From Corynebacterium pygosceleis (GTDB taxonomy: Bacteria; Actinomycetota; Actinomycetes; Mycobacteriales; Mycobacteriaceae), in assembly GCF_016595275.2 (NCBI RefSeq), contig NZ_JAENIQ020000007.1:1-64000 (forward strand): a DNA stretch of 64,000 nt. Reading direction: 5' to 3'. Below the pieces are notes generated by a model. That model worked only from the letters and a program-made list of their open reading frames with translations, did not search any database and was not told where the DNA came from. Both the position numbers and the translations under genes were made by a program. Shown here in pieces: positions 11,997 to 57,044 of this stretch; the first letter of the stretch is position 1; the number at the start of each line of letters is the position of its first letter.

Positions 11997-13284
11997 GGGA
12001 CTTAGCGTAGGGACCGAATCCGCCGACCGCACCTCGGGTGCTCCCGGGGAGCGGAGCATACGGCAGGGTATCCACATACTCACCGGGGTGCTGCTGCTCG
12101 TGGTGGCGTTCGCGGCGGTGAAGTCCGAGGCCGTGCAGCTGCTCATCACACTGGCGTTGTGTGCGGGGTTCTCGGGCACCTACGTTCTGGGGGCGCGGAC
12201 ACGTGACCGGATGTCGGGCGGCCAGAGTCAGGTGTGGTTGCTGGCGTTGACGTTGCTGTGGGTGCTCCTCATCCCGATGCAGCCGACCGCCATCTACCTG
12301 GTTTTTCCGCTGTACTTCCTGTATCTGCAGGTACTGGATGACGTCCGTGGTGTCATTGCCGTGATCGGGGCGACAGCGGTGTCGGTGTTCTCGCAGTGGC
12401 CGCATCTCACGGCGGGGGCGATTCTCGGCCCGACCGTCGCTGCGTTGGTGTCCATCGGCATCGACTACGCCTTCAAGACGCTGTGGAAGGTCTCCGCCGA
12501 ACGTGAGGAACTCATCGCGGAACTGCTGGAGACCCGGTCCCAGCTGGCGGACACCGAACGGGCAGCGGGGATCGCCGCCGAGCGGCAGCGTATCGCGCAC
12601 GAGATCCATGACACCCTGGCGCAGGGGTTGTCGAGCATCCAGATGCTGCTGTACGTCGCCGAGCAGGAGCTGAAGAAGACGGGGATCCGTGATGATGAGG
12701 CGGAGACGATCCTGAAGCGTATCGATCAGGCTCGGACGACTGCGGCGGACAACCTGGGTGAGGCCCGGGCGATGATCGCCGCACTGCAACCGGCGGCCCT
12801 GTCGCGGACCTCCCTGGAGGGGGCGCTGCACCGGGTCGCGAACGGTATCGTCGGCACCGAGGTGACGATCGCCGTCGAGGGGGATGAGCGGCAGCTCCCG
12901 ATGCGGACGGAGGCGTCACTGCTGCGGATCGCGCAGGGTGCGATGGGGAATGTCGCGAAACACGCTGACGCCGGGCGGTGCCATGTCACGCTGACCTACG
13001 GTGAGGACGAGGTCCGGCTGGATGTGGTGGATGACGGGTGCGGCTTCGATCCCGAGGCCGTGGGGGAGCGTCCGCGTGGGTTGGGGCACATCGGCCTTGA
13101 CGCCATGCGGCAACGTGCAGCAGAGCAACACGGTACGCTGACTGTTGAATCCGCGCCGGGTCAGGGGACCGCGGTGTCCATCGCGATTCCCGTGGAGGAT
13201 GGTGCACCGGTTCAGGCCCGTCGTGCCATGGCGCTCACACAGTTCGATGAACCCGGTTGCACACCGGAGGACACCGATCGGTAG
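11995..13284 (+). CDS. hrrS: Two-component sensor histidine kinase, HrrS-like
   Basis: A 429-residue kinase. Five or six hydrophobic segments (about residues 22-155) form the sensor part. A HisKA_3 dimerisation domain carries the phospho-acceptor His205 in AHEIHDTLAQGLSSIQ, and a HATPase domain follows with NVAKHADAG, VVDDGCGFD and GLGHIGL. With the LuxR-type regulator downstream it matches the haem-responsive HrrSA pair of corynebacteria, which controls haem oxygenase and respiratory genes; the assignment rests on partner similarity and on the nearby sodA/msrA/ldh order. A paralogue such as ChrS is the alternative. The start 11995 is 7 bases after TAAGGT (11982-11987). Confidence 0.85.
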   Translation: MGLSVGTESADRTSGAPGERSIRQGIHILTGVLLLVVAFAAVKSEAVQLLITLALCAGFSGTYVLGARTRDRMSGGQSQVWLLALTLLWVLLIPMQPTAIYLVFPLYFLYLQVLDDVRGVIAVIGATAVSVFSQWPHLTAGAILGPTVAALVSIGIDYAFKTLWKVSAEREELIAELLETRSQLADTERAAGIAAERQRIAHEIHDTLAQGLSSIQMLLYVAEQELKKTGIRDDEAETILKRIDQARTTAADNLGEARAMIAALQPAALSRTSLEGALHRVANGIVGTEVTIAVEGDERQLPMRTEASLLRIAQGAMGNVAKHADAGRCHVTLTYGEDEVRLDVVDDGCGFDPEAVGERPRGLGHIGLDAMRQRAAEQHGTLTVESAPGQGTAVSIAIPVEDGAPVQARRAMALTQFDEPGCTPEDTDR

Positions 13285-30477: not shown

Positions 30478-30536
30478 GACGAGCAGGGTACCCCGACCGG
30501 GTCGGTTGAACCTCAGTGGCGGCTAGACTCCGATAC

Positions 30537-31379
30537 ATGAGAACAGTCGTCGCCTATCTCGGGCCCGAAGGAACCTTCACTGAATCCGCGCTGCTGGCTT
30601 TTCAGCGGCAGGGATGCTTCGGTACAAGTGAAGTGGCGAAACTCCCGGTGGAAAGCCCTCATGAGGCATTGGGGAAGGTGCGCAACGGTATTGCGCAGTA
30701 CGCCTGTGTGGCCATCGAGAACTCGGTGGACGGTCCGGTGACGCACACCTTCGACGCACTTGCGGACGGTGGGGGCGTAAGAATCTTCGCGGAAACCGAG
30801 ATTGACGTCTATTTTTCCGTGATGGTGCGTCCGGGGACCACGGCCGGAGACGTCCGCACCTTCACCACCCATCCGGTGGCGCGTCAGCAGGTCCGTAATT
30901 GGACCGAGCATGCTTTCCCCGCTGCCGAGTTCATCCCCTCGTCGTCGAATGCCGCTGCGGCCCGTTCGGTAGCCGAGGGACGTGCTGATGCGGCAATTGC
31001 GCCTCAACGGGCAGCGGACATATTCGAACTGGATTCGATCGCCCGAGAAGTGATCGATGTACCCGGGGCCCGGACCAGATTCGTGGTCGTGGGCGGGCTC
31101 CACAGTCCACCTCCTCCGACCGGGACGGATCGCTCGGCCGTTGTCTTTACCCTCCCCAACATCCCCGGGGCCCTCGTATCGGCGCTCAGGGTGTTCTCCT
31201 CGCGGGGAATAGACCTCTCCCGTATCGAGTCTCGTCCAACCCGCACCGTTCTGGGTACCTACCGGTTCCACGTTGAAGTATCCGGGCACATTGAGAGCCC
31301 AATGGTAGCTACGGCGTTTCAGGAACTCGGCTCCATATCGGATGAGCTAACCTATTTAGGGTCATGGCCGGCCATGTAA
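30537..31379 (+). CDS. pheA: Prephenate dehydratase
   Basis: A 280-residue enzyme converting prephenate to phenylpyruvate in phenylalanine synthesis. The N-terminus VVAYLGPEGTFTESAL, the catalytic TRF motif in ARTRFVVVGG and a C-terminal ACT domain with GALVSALRVFSSRGIDLSRIESRP mark it as an allosteric, phenylalanine-inhibited monofunctional dehydratase. The ATG at 30537 lies 7 bases after TAGACT (30524-30529) and is probably leaderless. In C. glutamicum a phosphoglycerate-mutase-like gene follows as I recall; here the polysaccharide locus begins instead. Confidence 0.96.
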   Translation: MRTVVAYLGPEGTFTESALLAFQRQGCFGTSEVAKLPVESPHEALGKVRNGIAQYACVAIENSVDGPVTHTFDALADGGGVRIFAETEIDVYFSVMVRPGTTAGDVRTFTTHPVARQQVRNWTEHAFPAAEFIPSSSNAAAARSVAEGRADAAIAPQRAADIFELDSIAREVIDVPGARTRFVVVGGLHSPPPPTGTDRSAVVFTLPNIPGALVSALRVFSSRGIDLSRIESRPTRTVLGTYRFHVEVSGHIESPMVATAFQELGSISDELTYLGSWPAM

Positions 31380-50982: not shown

Positions 50983-51182
50983 GCCTTAGGTTGAGAATTA
51001 CTCGGGAACTTGTAGCCTAAAAATAAACGAATTTCGGAAAGATGAACCTCTCCATCATCCAGCAGACTACAAGATCTACTTGATCGCGAAAAACCAAGGA
51101 AGCTTCCCACCGTGTTACTAGGAAATCCGCACTCTTCGGAGAACCTAAAAACTAGGGTGAGGGTTACTTAATTTCGCGCCGG

Positions 51183-52847
51183 TTATAAGAACGATGCTGG
51201 GGGGCGTGTAGCATTGTCAGTCCGGGCGGCCAAAAAGTCGGATTTGCGCATGATTGCCTTCGACAAATCTACACCCCGAAAATCGACGTTATTCAAGGTT
51301 GCATTCGTGAAATTCGTTCCCGCAAGGTATGCGGATGAGTCTTCTCCTTCTTCGTAGGTAATCCGAAAACTTGCATCCGTAAGGTCGGAGTCGGAAAAAT
51401 CGGCTTTTTCCATTTTGGCTTCATCGAAACAGCAGCCTATGAGGCTACTGTCCTTAAAAGAGGTGTTCGCTAGGCAGCACTTACGGAAAATTGCGCTCCC
51501 TGTTTCAGTACCCTCCACGGGATAACTTGAGCCGTCTGAATTATCAAATTTACCTCCACGCAGATCCGATCCCGTAAAATCAGTGCCGTGGATTTTTGTA
51601 TCTTGAAGCCTACAGTCGGCCATCCTGACGTTCTTTAGAACTGCTAGTGCTAGGAAAGAACCTCTCCAGTTAATGTGCTGAAGCTTTGTAGAAGCGGGGA
51701 AAATCACACAAGCAAGGTTTGCTTTCAAGAGGCGAGAATTATCAAGAGACAATGACTCGAGACTTGAGAGTCTTGACTCGAGACTTGAGAGTCTAATTCT
51801 TCCGTCGTCTGGGCCGGACGCGCTGTGACATTCCGAACTTCTGTTCGATTCAAACCGATTTCTCAAAACGGTCGCCCTCGCCGAGGAGATGGCGGCTGAC
51901 TCCTCGACTGCCGTCGATCGGCCTAATCCACATTCTTCCGTCGGCCTGTTGAGTTTATTCAAAAGTTTCCGTTTTCTGCCCGAGGGTCGGTTATCCGGCC
52001 GTGAGGTTTCCAGCATAATATTCAGTAACTCTTGTCGAATCTGGCGGCTTTCGTATTCCAGATCTTGTGGCGTTACTCCACGATAATCTGGTGTCGGTTC
52101 TTTCTTCAAAAAATTAATTTCTGAATTGATTAAATTGTACCAACTATCTATTTGTTGAGCCAGTTGATAGATTGCAGCACATCGAACCTGTATAGAACGT
52201 GACCCCAAGGCTTCTATTGCCGTTGACAATTGTTTTGACAAGTCGATTCTGTAACGGAAAAAGTTATCTATCTCGGCGCTTCGTTGTGCCTGTTTGATAT
52301 GTTCATTGTGTCGCCGATTTTCATTAGAAATACGTGCTTGATTGCTGCGTTGTCCGACCAAAACAGACATCATCACGCCACCACCACCGATCAGGCCGCC
52401 GGCGATTCGACCGAAAAGTATACCATCCTGCCCCCTTTCTTGTGCGGTAATGAATAAAATAATTCCAGAACAAATCGCGGCAATTATTGCGGTTCCTAGC
52501 CAGGCCTCTGGTTCTAGCAGAGAATAGCGATTTTTTGATTCAAAAAACGTATCTGAGCATTCCTTTTTGAAGCGTTTCCAGGCGTCGATTATTTTTGTTG
52601 TTTCCTGATTTTTAAACGAGAAATAAAGACCTTGGATTATGTCCCCGCCGCGAATAAAAATAAACATCACGATCCCCGCCAACGCGATGACGAAAATCCG
52701 AACCAAAGGGGGGAGTCCGTAAAAGCCCTGTTTTAGTGGGGTATATAAAAATGCTGCCGTTACAATCAGTATTATCGCGGAAATGATCTTTGATTCCGGC
52801 GGAACTACTTTTGGCGGTTCGATATGTCGTGGATCATTGTACTCCAC
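51183..52847 (-). CDS. Membrane-anchored pentapeptide-repeat protein
   Basis: A protein of about 554 residues. The N-terminal half has four hydrophobic helices (about residues 20-40, 45-65, 115-135, 145-165), then a charged coiled-coil-like part. From about residue 375 to the end there is a series of pentapeptide repeats A(D/N)LXX (SFLALAVLKNVRMADCRLQ; DFTGSDLRGGKFDNS; KADFSDSDLTDASF; NATLNNVDFRGVDLSKA), which fold as a right-handed beta helix. A 21-bp tandem duplication (51753-51794) repeats seven residues just before it. GGAGG 5 bases before the GTG at 52847 favours that start over the ATG at 52859. The function is unknown; some pentapeptide proteins (McbG, Qnr) protect gyrase. Confidence 0.85.
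   Translation of the reverse strand: MEYNDPRHIEPPKVVPPESKIISAIILIVTAAFLYTPLKQGFYGLPPLVRIFVIALAGIVMFIFIRGGDIIQGLYFSFKNQETTKIIDAWKRFKKECSDTFFESKNRYSLLEPEAWLGTAIIAAICSGIILFITAQERGQDGILFGRIAGGLIGGGGVMMSVLVGQRSNQARISNENRRHNEHIKQAQRSAEIDNFFRYRIDLSKQLSTAIEALGSRSIQVRCAAIYQLAQQIDSWYNLINSEINFLKKEPTPDYRGVTPQDLEYESRQIRQELLNIMLETSRPDNRPSGRKRKLLNKLNRPTEECGLGRSTAVEESAAISSARATVLRNRFESNRSSECHSASGPDDGRIRLSSLESRLSSLESLSLDNSRLLKANLACVIFPASTKLQHINWRGSFLALAVLKNVRMADCRLQDTKIHGTDFTGSDLRGGKFDNSDGSSYPVEGTETGSAIFRKCCLANTSFKDSSLIGCCFDEAKMEKADFSDSDLTDASFRITYEEGEDSSAYLAGTNFTNATLNNVDFRGVDLSKAIMRKSDFLAARTDNATRPPASFL
51753..51794 (-). repeat. 21-bp perfect tandem duplication inside the pentapeptide gene
   Basis: Units 51753-51773 and 51774-51794 are identical and in frame, duplicating seven residues (the RLSSLES motif occurs twice). 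The unit also contains CTCGAG and near-palindromic GACTCGAGACTTGAGAGTC. It looks like a recent slippage event. Confidence 0.9.
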
Positions 52848-53157
52848 TTGAGCCTCCATAGATTGAGTGAAATTTTATTCTTGAGGTGGATGTATCCGTG
52901 CCTTTCGCCTAGATAGACTTCTTGAAACGCAAAATAAAATGGGGATAAGAAGATTATATATCAACTCTGCTGCGGTGTCATTATTTGCCGTGTTGATTTT
53001 AAACACGCTGACCTGCTTGACGACTTATTTACTTGCGGTCACTGGTTGAAAGAACGTGAATCGCCGTAACATGCAAGAGGGTGGGGTCGATCTGCCCATT
53101 GACGGGTATTACTTATTGAATTAGTTGATGTGGGAGCCATGGAAATGCAGCCATAGA
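52848..53157. other. Intergenic region upstream of the pentapeptide gene
   Basis: This low-G+C gap contains the promoter described at 52953-52981. A 36-codon hydrophobic frame on the plus strand (52939-53049) overlaps that promoter and has no ribosome binding site. No other gene is supported. Confidence 0.5.
52953..52981 (-). promoter_or_regulatory. Promoter of the pentapeptide-repeat gene
   Basis: On the minus strand ATGACA (52981-52976), a 17-base spacer and a perfect TATAAT (52958-52953). Transcription would start about 95 bases before the start codon. Confidence 0.65.
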
Positions 53158-53922
53158 TTAGGTAGGTGAATATACCCCGATTTCTAGCGATGAAGATATC
53201 AGGGGATCGTTCCTGGATATATCTTTTAGTGCGCGCCGACCCGTCTTCGGATCCAGTAGGCCCTTAAGGGTCAAGTCAGATATCTGGATCCGATGAATTG
53301 ACCGGACTGGATCTTCGGCACAGGTAGAAATCTGGGGGATGATCTGATGGTGTACCTGTCGAAAGCTAGAGAGTTTATCCCGTTTTAGTAATTTAAAGAC
53401 TGGTTCGTTGAACTGTGAGTAGGGGCTTGTATCCTGAACAACAGTCTTCATTACCTGCCGATACGCATCAAAAGCCTTTGAGTAGGGTTCTCTACTTGTG
53501 TGGCTGAGTTCGATAACGATGAGGTGGCCGTCCTGGCGAATTGCTCTGCGTATCTCCGATATTGCATTGCTGATGTCACGGCAGTGTGAAAGTGTGAGTC
53601 GTGCATGAATGATATGGAATGTCCCAGACTTTATTGGTAAATTCTCCACATCGGCTATCGCGTGGCGCCGTATTTCTCCGGTGATGAATTGAGATTTCTT
53701 TGGAAAGTGAATGTCGACACCATAATAGGCTAATCCAAGATCAGTCAGAGGGTCTCTCAGGGAGCAGGTGGCCGCCCCAAGATCGAGTATTGAGTGTCCC
53801 CATTTTATGTCAGGAAGATTAGAAACTAGACGGATGGATATAGGGTCGTACATTGTCGCTAAGCTATTGAGGCGATTAGCCTCGTCATGAGTGTTCCGGT
53901 AGAAGTATTTCGACCTATTCAT
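53158..53922 (-). CDS. Class I SAM-dependent methyltransferase of the YcaO cluster
   Basis: A 254-residue methyltransferase with a UbiE-like fold. Motif I is SILDLGAATCSLRDPL (the usual second Gly is replaced, LGAATC), motif II YYGVDIHF, and the post-motif regions are ADVENLPIKSGTFHIIHARLTLSHC and IRQDGHLIVIEL. The C-terminal third has no familiar motif and may bind the substrate. It begins 10 bases after the ycaO stop, with GGGATAGG overlapping that stop, so the two are co-transcribed; methylation of the peptide product is the natural inference. Confidence 0.85.
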   Translation of the reverse strand: MNRSKYFYRNTHDEANRLNSLATMYDPISIRLVSNLPDIKWGHSILDLGAATCSLRDPLTDLGLAYYGVDIHFPKKSQFITGEIRRHAIADVENLPIKSGTFHIIHARLTLSHCRDISNAISEIRRAIRQDGHLIVIELSHTSREPYSKAFDAYRQVMKTVVQDTSPYSQFNEPVFKLLKRDKLSSFRQVHHQIIPQISTCAEDPVRSIHRIQISDLTLKGLLDPKTGRRALKDISRNDPLISSSLEIGVYSPT

Positions 53923-53932
53923 TTAATTTGAC

Positions 53933-55609
53933 CTATCCCAGTATATGGGGAAGTAGGATATCTCGGTCATCATACATAGACTCGTGAGAATATTGGCCGA
54001 ATATCTCAGAGTGTCCTAATGTAGCATTATCATATCCAAATGTACAAGGTATTAGGCTCATATCTATCGCCCGCACGCAGACGCGATTGGACCGTACTCC
54101 AGGTATGTTCACGGCGATCGGGTTGGCCTTTTCGATGCTTGGCGGGGTACGGCACGAAACGTCGACGATTCTCAGTATCTCCTCCACCCTGCGGGGTCCT
54201 GCATTTCTCCAAAAACGTGCATGATCGAGTGAGGATCGGACTGTTTCTGGGGGGCGTGAAAAATCGTAGTCTAGAGGTATTCTCTTTATTCCTAACAGTG
54301 CTTCTTCTTGTGCTATATGGAATGCGGAGGTTTCATCGGCTTCTGGAGAGTCGATTTTGCCAGACGCCAATCCTGCCGCAAGTCCGTTTGTGTCCCAAGC
54401 GATAGAGAGTATGATACTTTCGTTACATGATCGGATTTTCCCGATATTGAGAAATATTAATTCGGGATTATCCCGGGTAGCCGTTTTGCAGGGGATCTGG
54501 TCGTATTTTATTAGCTCGCCCGTCACCATTCCGGTGGTCCACCACTTCATGAAGAAGTGGCGTTCAATAAGTTCCCGTGTGGCGGCTTCAAAAGCGGCTC
54601 GAAAGGTAAAATGGGCAGCAGTTCCGGAAGAATTAACAAGGCTCCTACGGCCTCTCTGGAATCGGGCTCTTGGGAAAAGTACTTCATCGCATATGCGAAA
54701 TATGGGTCCGGTGGTGTCTTCCGTGAAAATGGTCCGAACGTCGTCTTTAGGATCGCCATTTCGTTTCATGGGATCTCTTTGAATCTGGTCGGCGGTGAAA
54801 TGGTAATAGTCTTCATAGCTAGACCCAAGCTGCAGTCTGGCGCGAGGGCATTCCTCCATGCGCGCGAGTTCGAGCGTGCTCGGATAGAGGGATGACCGCT
54901 CTGCAGCTTCACTGACCGCTTTTATCTTGGCCAGTTCTCGAGTCTGATCCAATGCTGAAGCAACGATGTAAGGGGAGAATGTTCCATCCGATGCGACTGT
55001 CACAGGAGCGACGCCGAGATACCTGCGATCGCCACACAGTTCCAGGAGATGTTCTTGGTAGTTCGCCGCAGCTGCCAGAGGGCCTATTTCGCTGGAAGTG
55101 TTCGCTTGAAAGATCGGAGGATTCTCGAGCTGACATGGTTGTGCGGTGTTCAGCCCCCAAGGCGCTTCGTAGAGAATTTCGAGGCGTCCGACTACTAAGC
55201 CGATGAACGCCTCCCTGCGTTGTGCAGGCTGGAGGACTGACAGGGCTCTGAGCATCTCGACTTCGACCTGGTCGGCTCGTACGTCGTCGAGCTCAATTGA
55301 GAAGGTCGGTGCGTGGAGCGTTGGACCGTTCCCCTGGGGTGTCTGTTCTTGCTTGACGATGTATGTGGGAGTGAGGATTTTTTCCCAAGGGTATCGGGAG
55401 AGAGGGGGGGGGAGGTGAGGCACAGCCGACATGATTTTTCGTGCTGTGTCGATCTCGTCTTTTGGGGCTAGACGTACTGTGGCGCCAACCCCGTCGTGGA
55501 TGCTCCAGAATCTGACGGTTGAAGGAGCTAGGGCCACGCCGATGACCCCTACCCCCGTATCGGCTGGGGGCGTCGGGGGCCACGGGTCGGGCCGAGTCCT
55601 AGAACTCAA
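53933..55609 (-). CDS. YcaO-domain protein (TOMM/RiPP type)
   Basis: A 558-residue protein. The YcaO domain runs from about residue 195 (RYLGVAPVTVASDGTFSP) to the end. ATP/Mg-binding residues are evident: KAVSEAAER (Glu234, Glu237, Arg238), NSSGTAAHFTFRAAFEAATRELIER (326-350) and IAQEEALLG (434-437). The last part (NRVCVRAIDMSLIPCTFGYD) is like bacteriocin-type YcaO proteins, but the C-terminus LLPHILG lacks the PxPxP end of azoline cyclodehydratases. Residues 1-190 are unassigned and might be a degenerate leader-binding or E1-like part. YcaO enzymes use ATP to activate peptide backbone amides (azoline, thioamide or amidine formation). The TTG start overlaps the peptide gene's stop by 11 bases. 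Confidence 0.88.
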   Translation of the reverse strand: MSSRTRPDPWPPTPPADTGVGVIGVALAPSTVRFWSIHDGVGATVRLAPKDEIDTARKIMSAVPHLPPPLSRYPWEKILTPTYIVKQEQTPQGNGPTLHAPTFSIELDDVRADQVEVEMLRALSVLQPAQRREAFIGLVVGRLEILYEAPWGLNTAQPCQLENPPIFQANTSSEIGPLAAAANYQEHLLELCGDRRYLGVAPVTVASDGTFSPYIVASALDQTRELAKIKAVSEAAERSSLYPSTLELARMEECPRARLQLGSSYEDYYHFTADQIQRDPMKRNGDPKDDVRTIFTEDTTGPIFRICDEVLFPRARFQRGRRSLVNSSGTAAHFTFRAAFEAATRELIERHFFMKWWTTGMVTGELIKYDQIPCKTATRDNPELIFLNIGKIRSCNESIILSIAWDTNGLAAGLASGKIDSPEADETSAFHIAQEEALLGIKRIPLDYDFSRPPETVRSSLDHARFWRNAGPRRVEEILRIVDVSCRTPPSIEKANPIAVNIPGVRSNRVCVRAIDMSLIPCTFGYDNATLGHSEIFGQYSHESMYDDRDILLPHILG

Positions 55610-55682
55610 TCGTGTGTTCGGTGTCTGCGAAACTGCAGGTGCCGAGCATCTCGGTGTTGTCGATAATGTAGTTGACGTTCAT
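55599..55682 (-). CDS. 27-residue putative RiPP precursor peptide
   Basis: A short gene too small for usual gene finders. AGGAG lies 6 bases before the ATG at 55682, a consensus ribosome binding site, and a promoter lies about 37 bases upstream. The peptide is acidic and ends GTCSFADTEHTIEF, with one Cys (16), one Ser (17), four Thr (10, 15, 21, 24) and a C-terminal Phe. Its stop codon overlaps the TTG start of ycaO, so peptide and modifying enzyme are translationally coupled. Cys, Ser and Thr are the residues heterocyclised by YcaO cyclodehydratases. There is no Gly-Gly or other clear leader cleavage site. Confidence 0.65.
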   Translation of the reverse strand: MNVNYIIDNTEMLGTCSFADTEHTIEF

Positions 55683-55718
55683 GGAGTCTCCTAGAGGTTC
55701 ATTGTTGCAGGTGTATTG

Positions 55719-55747
55719 AGTGTACCGATGTCAGTTGATTTTGTAAA
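55719..55747 (-). promoter_or_regulatory. Promoter of the precursor-ycaO-methyltransferase operon
   Basis: On the minus strand TTTACA (55747-55742), exactly 17 bases, then TACACT (55724-55719). Transcription would start near 55712, about 30 bases before the precursor ATG. Confidence 0.6.
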
Positions 55748-55773
55748 GGTAACCAGTGGGCGTGAGTGTCCGT

Positions 55774-55790
55774 TATGATATTTAATCATA
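55774..55790 (-). promoter_or_regulatory. AT-rich inverted repeat upstream of the RiPP promoter
   Basis: TATGAT (55774-55779) and ATCATA (55785-55790) flank ATTTA, about 27 bases upstream of the -35 element of the operon promoter. The position fits an activator site; AT-richness also fits Lsr2 silencing. Confidence 0.35.
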
Positions 55791-55958
55791 TCTTTTTGGG
55801 GTGGTGACTTGTGGAATGGTGCACGTTGTAACTCGACGGGGGTGGGTGGGTTTTGTTGCGGGGTGTCGCCAGTGGTTGATGGCTTGTCGAGGTTGGATTT
55901 CACTTTCGCCCCAGGGGGCGACTTGCTTGGCTTGTCCGGGTTATAGATTATCTCTTGG

Positions 55959-56678
55959 CTACTGCTTTTGGGTCGTTTCGCCGCGGTCTACGATGTTTGC
56001 GTTGCCTCGTATGGAAGTTAAGAATGTGTCCCGTTGATCAAGGGAGTTTATCTCCGTGTATATCGGGCGGATATTTTTCCGGGTTTCCGCTACTGCTTTC
56101 CGATATTTAGCCGTGTTTCTTATGCTCCACCACAACGTTGACCGTGGTGAGAGAAGGGCGTGCGCGAATGATCGTTCGTACACTCCGGTCCAGATTTCTT
56201 CGTTTTTTCTGCGGCGTTCCAGTGTTCGTTTTAGGAGTGCCTGGAGGCGGTCCCTGCTGGGTAGGTCGATATAGAGTAAATGGGTAGCTCTTGAAAAAGA
56301 CGGCTTCAAAATTTCCCAGTGTTGGAAATCCGTTATCCAGCTTTGTGTAGTTAGTGCCGAGGATGCGCTCATGCTCAATTTGGTCGATCGCTTCCATCCG
56401 GGCAGGTAGTAGAGCGCGTCGAGTTCAACGTAAACTATGTTGGTGGACGTTGATAGTGCCTTCGATATTGTGGTCTTTCCTGCGCCGGGAAGTCCTGCGA
56501 CCAAGATGCGAGATTCGTGTGTTATCGAATTGAGCCAATCGGCAGGGTGTAGCAACGGTGGCACCTTCTTGGTGTTTGAATTCGATTGTAGGATTAATTT
56601 GTTGGCTTCGAGCCTTGATGCGATGATGGCTTGTGGCATTGATATGGACTTACTGCAAATTCGTGCTGGTCCTGTCAC
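55959..56678 (-). CDS. P-loop kinase, adenylate-kinase/FlaR (topology modulation)-like
   Basis: A protein of 239 residues. After about 55 unassigned residues comes an AAA_17-type P-loop kinase fold: Walker A ILVAGLPGAGKTTISKAL, VELDALYYLPGWKRS (equivalent to the HLDxLYWxPGW motif of FlaR-like proteins), LLYIDLPSRDRLQALLKRTLERRRK lid region and WWSIRNTAKYRKAV. FlaR-like proteins are uncharacterised nucleotide kinases. The start is uncertain (GTG 56678 or ATG 56639; no Shine-Dalgarno). It lies downstream of the zincin gene and upstream of the RiPP operon on the same strand, but 277 bases separate it from the precursor gene. Low G+C links it to the cluster. Confidence 0.75.
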   Translation of the reverse strand: MTGPARICSKSISMPQAIIASRLEANKLILQSNSNTKKVPPLLHPADWLNSITHESRILVAGLPGAGKTTISKALSTSTNIVYVELDALYYLPGWKRSTKLSMSASSALTTQSWITDFQHWEILKPSFSRATHLLYIDLPSRDRLQALLKRTLERRRKNEEIWTGVYERSFAHALLSPRSTLWWSIRNTAKYRKAVAETRKNIRPIYTEINSLDQRDTFLTSIRGNANIVDRGETTQKQ

Positions 56679-56699
56679 CTAGGATGACATCGGGACGCT

Positions 56700-57044
56700 T
56701 CACCCCCACCCCAGCTCGTGCAGTTCATCGTCGTCGAGCCCGAAGTGGTGCCCTATCTCGTGGCCGACGGTGATGCGGACCTGTTCGATCAGGTCCTCCT
56801 CGCTGGTGCAGTGGTCGAGCAGCGCCTCCTTGTAGATCGTGATCGAGGAGGGGAGTCCGGTGTGGTTGGCCAGCCGTTCCGGTAGGGGTACCCCGTTGTA
56901 GAGCCCGAGGATGGTGTTCGAGTCGGGGTTGTAGTCCTCGATGAGGATGGCGACGTTCCTGAGGTTGTCCAGGAACACATCCGGGATACGTTCGAACCCC
57001 ATGTCCACGAGCTCGTTGAAGCGTTCGTCGGAAACGTCGATCAC
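56700..57044 (-). CDS. Zincin-like metallopeptidase family protein
   Basis: A small protein of 114 residues of the actinobacterial Zincin_1 family. The metal-binding motif is TVGHEIGHHFGLDDDELHELGW (HExxH with a further acidic residue). No signal peptide is present, so it is cytoplasmic. The substrate is unknown. It marks the return to high-G+C core sequence. The GTG at 57044 is preceded by GAGGACGACAGGACC. It follows the Septum_form gene by 47 bases and is probably in its operon. Confidence 0.9.
   Translation of the reverse strand: MIDVSDERFNELVDMGFERIPDVFLDNLRNVAILIEDYNPDSNTILGLYNGVPLPERLANHTGLPSSITIYKEALLDHCTSEEDLIEQVRITVGHEIGHHFGLDDDELHELGWG

Follow-up and report, generated by a model that had tools for sequence, protein, structure and literature searches.

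In kind, the locus described here belongs with YcaO systems in which the YcaO protein stands alone. For bottromycin, the relevant passages of the literature describe YcaO proteins that function without a partner protein (PMC4603692, PMC8442711). The streptamidine study retrieved 2574 standalone YcaO proteins from actinobacteria, and according to its survey passages the commonest peptide family linked to such proteins has no regions rich in Ser, Thr or Cys (PMC8442711). The range of the chemistry is broad and, as summarised for the daptides, includes imidazoline formation on methylated amines (PMC12670281). For corynebacteria from the respiratory tract, one survey counts 40 RiPP clusters, of which 2 are azole peptides (LAPs) and 2 are thiopeptides (PMC12188740).

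Here we analyse a three-gene locus of Corynebacterium pygosceleis with a 27-codon gene, a YcaO gene and a methyltransferase gene. It lies in a window of 64,000 nucleotides, which is the whole stretch of DNA analysed and is situated on contig C7 of a genome that is 98 % complete. In the open-licence literature, we found no paper on this operon. We conclude that the locus is, on balance, probably a minimal YcaO-RiPP operon, with the 27-mer as predicted precursor next to a stand-alone YcaO and a methyltransferase.

Operon layout and the peptide gene

Three closely packed minus-strand genes, all with open frames, are found at the positions given in Table 1. The YcaO start overlaps the peptide stop by 11 nt, and 10 nt separate the YcaO stop from the methyltransferase start, in agreement with the compact layout described in the sequence-only reading. 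An in-frame GTG at codon 25 offers an alternative start for YcaO. By eye, no separate ribosome-binding site is recognisable for the YcaO start. Because this start overlaps the stop of the peptide gene, YcaO synthesis is probably coupled to translation of the peptide. The same reading assumed a common promoter. A consensus site is indeed present upstream, but the frequency of such sites equals chance, with 6 in the region versus 5.6 expected as the mean of shuffles. The operon contains no protease, exporter or immunity gene.

Table 1. Positions of the operon, its signals and the surrounding island in the window
Feature	Position	Strand	Description
Low-GC island	about 51000-56700		operon, pentapeptide-repeat protein and P-loop kinase-like gene
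Class I SAM-dependent methyltransferase gene	53158-53922	-	254 aa; PF08241 44.2 bits
YcaO-domain protein gene	53933-55609	-	TTG start, 558 aa
YcaO N-terminal region, about 190-198 aa	55015-55609	-	without Pfam match at E<=1
Peptide gene	55599-55682	-	ATG, 27 aa; one Cys, acidic, without Lys or Arg; putative RiPP precursor
Ribosome-binding site AGGAG	55688-55692	-	from sequence; 5 nt 5' of the peptide ATG
Promoter-like site TTTACA-17-TACACT	55719-55747	-	consensus match only

The peptide gene carries a strong coding signature. Its GC content at codon positions 1, 2 and 3 is 37, 30 and 81 %, and its CAI, calculated with the eleven host-like genes of the window as reference, reaches 0.63 versus 0.30-0.36 in four other genes of the island. 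None of the 1501 windows of 27 codons in these four genes attains this value, and of 5000 synonymous recodings that follow the codon usage of the island, 0.18 % do so. Both strands between 51.1 and 56.69 kb together hold 75 small ORFs (20-100 codons), among which the peptide gene ranks first by CAI (runner-up 0.48) as well as by GC3 minus GC2 (0.52; runner-up 0.32). A ribosome-binding-like motif is present in six minus-strand ORFs (15-110 codons, 50.9-57.1 kb). Two of them have AGGAG or GGAGG, namely the peptide gene and one ORF inside the pentapeptide gene. Given AGGAG and the top rank in both codon measures, the 27-codon ORF is very probably translated and does not represent a chance ORF. 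The small gene had been proposed from the sequence alone, and these measures bear it out. An upstream ORF of 70 codons (55691-55903) was set aside, as the promoter-like site falls inside it; among the 75 ORFs it is outside the best eight by CAI and outside the best six by codon-position bias. A query of the plasmid collection with the peptide returned no similar sequence, and the 27-mer resembles none of the precursors seen in this analysis.

A translated 27-codon ORF could also be a regulatory or coupling leader, an upstream ORF in front of a YcaO and a methyltransferase that modify a host protein. The direct overlap of its stop with a YcaO start lacking its own ribosome-binding site would fit such a role, as would the lack of a similar known precursor and the missing export and protease genes. 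YcaO proteins linked to host proteins do exist (PMC13063428, PMC5589413 and the NCBIfam name of NF040716), and ribosomal proteins and McrA are reported as targets. However, the small ORF uses host-type codons like those of the flanking genes, which an attenuator would not require. As of 2021, the streptamidine authors were not aware of any evidence that YcaO proteins of Actinobacteria have functions outside RiPPs (PMC8442711). In the genus, the YcaO search matched 1 of 242 genomes, the window's own, and the two genes are therefore not a conserved housekeeping pair. We consider a leader function unlikely.

The YcaO protein

The sequence-only reading had described a TOMM-type core, an end without PxPxP and an N-terminus of 190 residues without assignment, and all three descriptions hold. 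The quoted core motifs are present, and in the search of Pfam and NCBIfam families residues 223-362 match PF02624 with 29.4 bits, above the Pfam gathering cut-off of 25.7. The SagD-type model TIGR03604 gives 17.9 bits and misses the NCBI cut-off of 219.25. The two ExxER core motifs of YcaO proteins have a role in ATP and Mg binding. In an alignment of the window protein with seven YcaO proteins of the genus, E234, E237, R238, E346, E349 and R350 are invariant in 8 of 8 rows. The protein ends in LLPHILG. Six of 14 other YcaO proteins of the genus end in PHPFP or PHPLP, and the remaining eight in CHPFA, PHPFS, QPFA, PLPHC, PLPHM or PMPHM.

For residues 1-198 we could not detect any Pfam family at E<=1, and the N-terminus is also without an NCBIfam match. 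The search for an RRE in this region gave neither a Pfam nor an NCBIfam match, and the AlphaFold2 models are of low confidence, with a mean pLDDT of 31.6 from the single sequence and 33.1 from seven sequences. With the latter model as query, the top Foldseek matches are chains of TruD, LynD and MusD. Nine matches were obtained, each at E<=0.001, and they carry little weight because their TM-scores are only 0.17-0.24. We rejected the idea that the region is a relic of the N-terminus of SagB-YcaO fusions, since its profile score of 10.1 is lower than the best of 50 shuffles (18.3).

Relatives of the YcaO and the methyltransferase

Close relatives of the YcaO are missing from the collections searched. 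Matches were found in 2 of 401 family-sample and 2 of 396 phylum-sample genomes, which is one extra match each. These extra matches, G368 (family, E 3.8e-4) and G887 (phylum, E 3.1e-5), are treated as chance because they cover only about 90-110 residues, with stops counted inside. Plasmids and phages gave no match at E<=0.01. The scans of viral contigs and GTDB genomes all begin from short peptide patterns and detect only sequences having those patterns. Neither the viral contigs nor the first round with GTDB gave YcaO relatives. A motif-based GTDB scan gave six distant YcaO proteins, four of which (L069, L070, L072 and L074) are nitroreductase-YcaO fusions. A profile built from the four fusions matches residues 221-538 of the window protein with E 6e-16 and probability 98.6. 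The four fusions all score with the SagB-type dehydrogenase model, above its cut-off in the case of L069 and L070 and below it in the case of L072 and L074. They also miss the TIGR03604 cut-off, at 101-175 bits, and in L072 and L074 the first ExxER motif reads ExxEW. Their C-termini are PHFFA in L069, PHFFS in L070 and PHPYT in both L072 and L074, so that a full PxPxP is missing in 4 of 4. A degenerate C-terminus is thus common to the window YcaO and to relatives that keep the dehydrogenase. The sequence-only reading implied that the missing PxPxP is a sign of new chemistry. The absence is real, but it is weak evidence given the ends of the fusions and of the genus proteins, and since the SagB-fused relatives also have no full PxPxP, it gives no argument for new chemistry. 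Beside the SagB-YcaO gene, which is fused in L069 and split in L071 (two candidate-phylum contigs), lies a gene for a 213-residue protein without NCBIfam match (L069 4043-4681, L071 9037-9675).

Within the genus, PF02624 is matched in 19 of 242 genomes, in 17 of them over the cut-off, the window's genome included. In five genomes (L030, L033, L034, G427 and G510) two YcaO matches lie about 8-10 kb apart; these loci are perhaps thiopeptide- or LAP-type clusters.

The locus could be a cut-down or decaying LAP locus, once a normal cluster, from which the E1-like and dehydrogenase genes have disappeared and which is now non-functional or makes an unoxidised azoline only. This would agree with SagB-type fusions as nearest YcaO domains found, with the low YcaO score and the degenerate C-terminus, and with weak or fragmentary PF02624 matches elsewhere in the genus (among them L038 and L041). 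Decay is difficult to reconcile with three open and tightly packed frames, with core motifs that are kept and with the strong codon signature of the small ORF. We regard such a remnant as improbable.

The methyltransferase has matches in 195 of 397 order-sample genomes, the window's own included. Its best match in the 396 other genomes has E 1.3e-8 and 35 % identity over part of the protein. We fetched 38 loci with relatives of the methyltransferase or of the pentapeptide-repeat protein, and in the short flanks covered none of them has a YcaO match at E<=1.

Partner genes in the genome

The sequence-only reading found no E1-like, TfuA or dehydrogenase gene nearby, and this remains correct: none lies near the operon, and the genome-wide matches to the first and last of these are on contig C1. 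PF02624 has one match in the genome. The E1-like model TIGR03882 also has one, which contains one internal stop and scores 39.2 bits (cut-off 36.9); it adjoins ORFs that by eye look UvrD-like and zinc-peptidase-like. The same model is matched in 11 of 14 control genomes, in none of them over the cut-off. One nitroreductase match at E<=0.01 is observed. A distant partner for the YcaO is possible from these matches, and nothing ties the E1-like match on C1 to the operon. Radical SAM methyltransferases are absent among the six proteins scanned, which comprise the island and its edge.

A thioamide-forming pathway of the TfuA type, which the absence of PxPxP could suggest, is very improbable, as the genome gives no TfuA (PF07812) match at E<=1 and none of the four SagB-fused relatives has a complete PxPxP end either.

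Genomic setting

The GC content is 0.41-0.58 in twelve 500-base bins from 51.0 to 57.0 kb, versus 0.64-0.70 on both sides. Beside the island are genes for a 339-residue protein and a zincin, which are adjacent in 12 of 12 relatives fetched, out of 38 other genomes having a match. By eye, a prephenate-dehydratase-like gene comes after the zincin in seven of the 12, the listings of the other five being not clear enough. A phosphoglycerate-mutase-like gene precedes the prephenate-dehydratase-like gene in six of these seven, and in two of the seven, L065 and L067, the latter gene comes after inserted genes. The window has its prephenate-dehydratase-like gene at 30516-31376. Because this gene and the zincin are close together in relatives, about 25 kb (31376-56700) looks inserted, and the operon island is apparently part of this insertion. 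The insertion contains a MacB-like ABC transporter of high GC and two low-GC parts, the polysaccharide-like genes and the operon island.

Two further genes share the island with the operon. The gene at 51183-52859 codes for a membrane pentapeptide-repeat protein and has a separate promoter-like site. Parts of the protein are matched at E<=1e-6 in 8 of 242 genus genomes, self included, with a second place in its own genome; among the seven others, PF02624 occurs only in G477, about 64 kb away. A gyrase-type immunity function of this protein is unsupported, considering its own promoter-like site and the absence of YcaO in the short flanks of its relatives. The other, a low-GC P-loop kinase-like gene (55959-56678), is separated from the zincin gene by about 20 nt and shows weak similarity to 'DNA topology modulation' kinases.

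At the same site, and again by eye, L065 has an AbiE-like pair (+420 to +2368) and L067 an adenine-methyltransferase-like gene with a partner (+515 to +2687), the offsets being counted from the end of the zincin match. From this differing gene content, the site looks like a variable hotspot. Such genes at this site in relatives would make a defence or conflict module conceivable, which is nevertheless hardly probable, as PADLOC has no match for the YcaO and, for the methyltransferase, only a weak one in a methyltransferase region (mads_2, E 0.00047).

Proposed pathway

We favour the RiPP reading because of the gene order with its overlaps, the codon rank and AGGAG of the peptide gene, the YcaO core motifs and the profile match of the fusions, because a LAP locus of the genus (L028, with C, D and B genes) also has a methyltransferase-like gene, and because bottromycin and streptamidine, as presented in the parts of the literature cited, provide precedents (PMC8442711, PMC4603692). 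On this basis, the 27-residue peptide would be a ribosomal precursor that is translated first and, as its codons suggest, well. The YcaO would bind it without an E1-like or TfuA partner, perhaps via its N-terminal region. It would then phosphorylate a backbone amide using ATP, and a nearby nucleophile would attack. Most simply this nucleophile would be the single Cys16, or the adjoining Thr15 or Ser17, and an azoline would result. The methyltransferase would then methylate the peptide, and some form of processing and export of the product is to be assumed.

Several observations speak against this pathway. In the genus, family, phylum, plasmid, phage and pattern searches we found no homologous operon that shows co-evolution of peptide and YcaO. 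The short peptide contains a single Cys and is unlike the precursors seen, and the operon is without protease, exporter and immunity genes. The low TIGR03604 score, the degenerate end, the unexplained N-terminus, the low-pLDDT models and the chance-level promoter also count on this side.

Beyond that, there is a bolder version of the RiPP reading. In it, the YcaO is self-contained, recognises the peptide with a new N-terminal peptide-binding domain and no partner, and gives a new methylated backbone modification; the operon would then presumably be among the most compact YcaO-RiPP systems. We put this forward tentatively and think it unlikely. If three genes suffice, the operon would be a very compact system for studying how a partnerless YcaO selects its peptide, with the YcaO N-terminus as a candidate for a new recognition domain. 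If they do not, the operon is one more orphan among many uncharacterised YcaO clusters.

Comparison with known systems

The nearest YcaO domains found are those of the four SagB-YcaO fusions, all from metagenome-assembled genomes (L069 Doudnabacteria, L070 Propionibacterium sp., L072 Moraniibacteriota, L074 Kerfeldbacteria). They share with the window protein the SSGxAxx and ELIER motifs, a DHxx[FL][YW] stretch and C-termini of the form FG...PH--. Identity is 19-21 %. In contrast to the window protein with its about 190 unrelated residues, the fusions have nitroreductase/SagB-type N-termini of about 330-376 residues.

Within the genus, L028 is a canonical azole-peptide locus with a C protein (TIGR03882), a D protein (TIGR03604), a dehydrogenase (TIGR03605) and a methyltransferase-like gene. 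It resembles the window operon in combining a YcaO with a methyltransferase-like gene, which is weakly similar to the window methyltransferase (E 0.0011). It differs by separate E1-like and dehydrogenase genes and by a YcaO that is over the SagD cut-off and ends in PHPFP. L029 is an azole-peptide locus similar to L028. On its minus strand, starting at 12536, an ORF of 46 codons has an AAGGAG motif and ends in a tail rich in Cys; by eye, it is a likely azole-peptide precursor of this cluster.

The bottromycin locus, as outlined in the passages available (PMC4603692, PMC8442711), also has YcaO proteins without a partner, methyltransferases and a precursor that is not rich in Gly, Cys, Ser or Thr. 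Two YcaO proteins and radical SAM proteins operate there, whereas here there is one YcaO with a class I methyltransferase. As in the window operon, a standalone YcaO of the streptamidine (ami) family has next to it a short precursor in which no region is rich in Ser, Thr or Cys (PMC8442711). AmiB (a predicted TruD-like RRE/E1 protein), a hydrolase, a dehydrogenase and transporters belong to the main type of ami cluster described in that source, and all of them are missing in the window operon. Precursors of the ami family have 31-89 residues versus 27 here, and the end of AmiD is proline-rich.

The sequence-only reading stated that the combination matches no azoline, thioamide or bottromycin locus known to it. 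This holds for the sequence: the YcaO and the methyltransferase are without a close match in the collections searched. The layout, however, lies within the known diversity of stand-alone YcaO RiPPs such as bottromycin and streptamidine. Given the published precedents for RiPP loci with a stand-alone YcaO, we see in the operon a variant of these loci and not a new kind.
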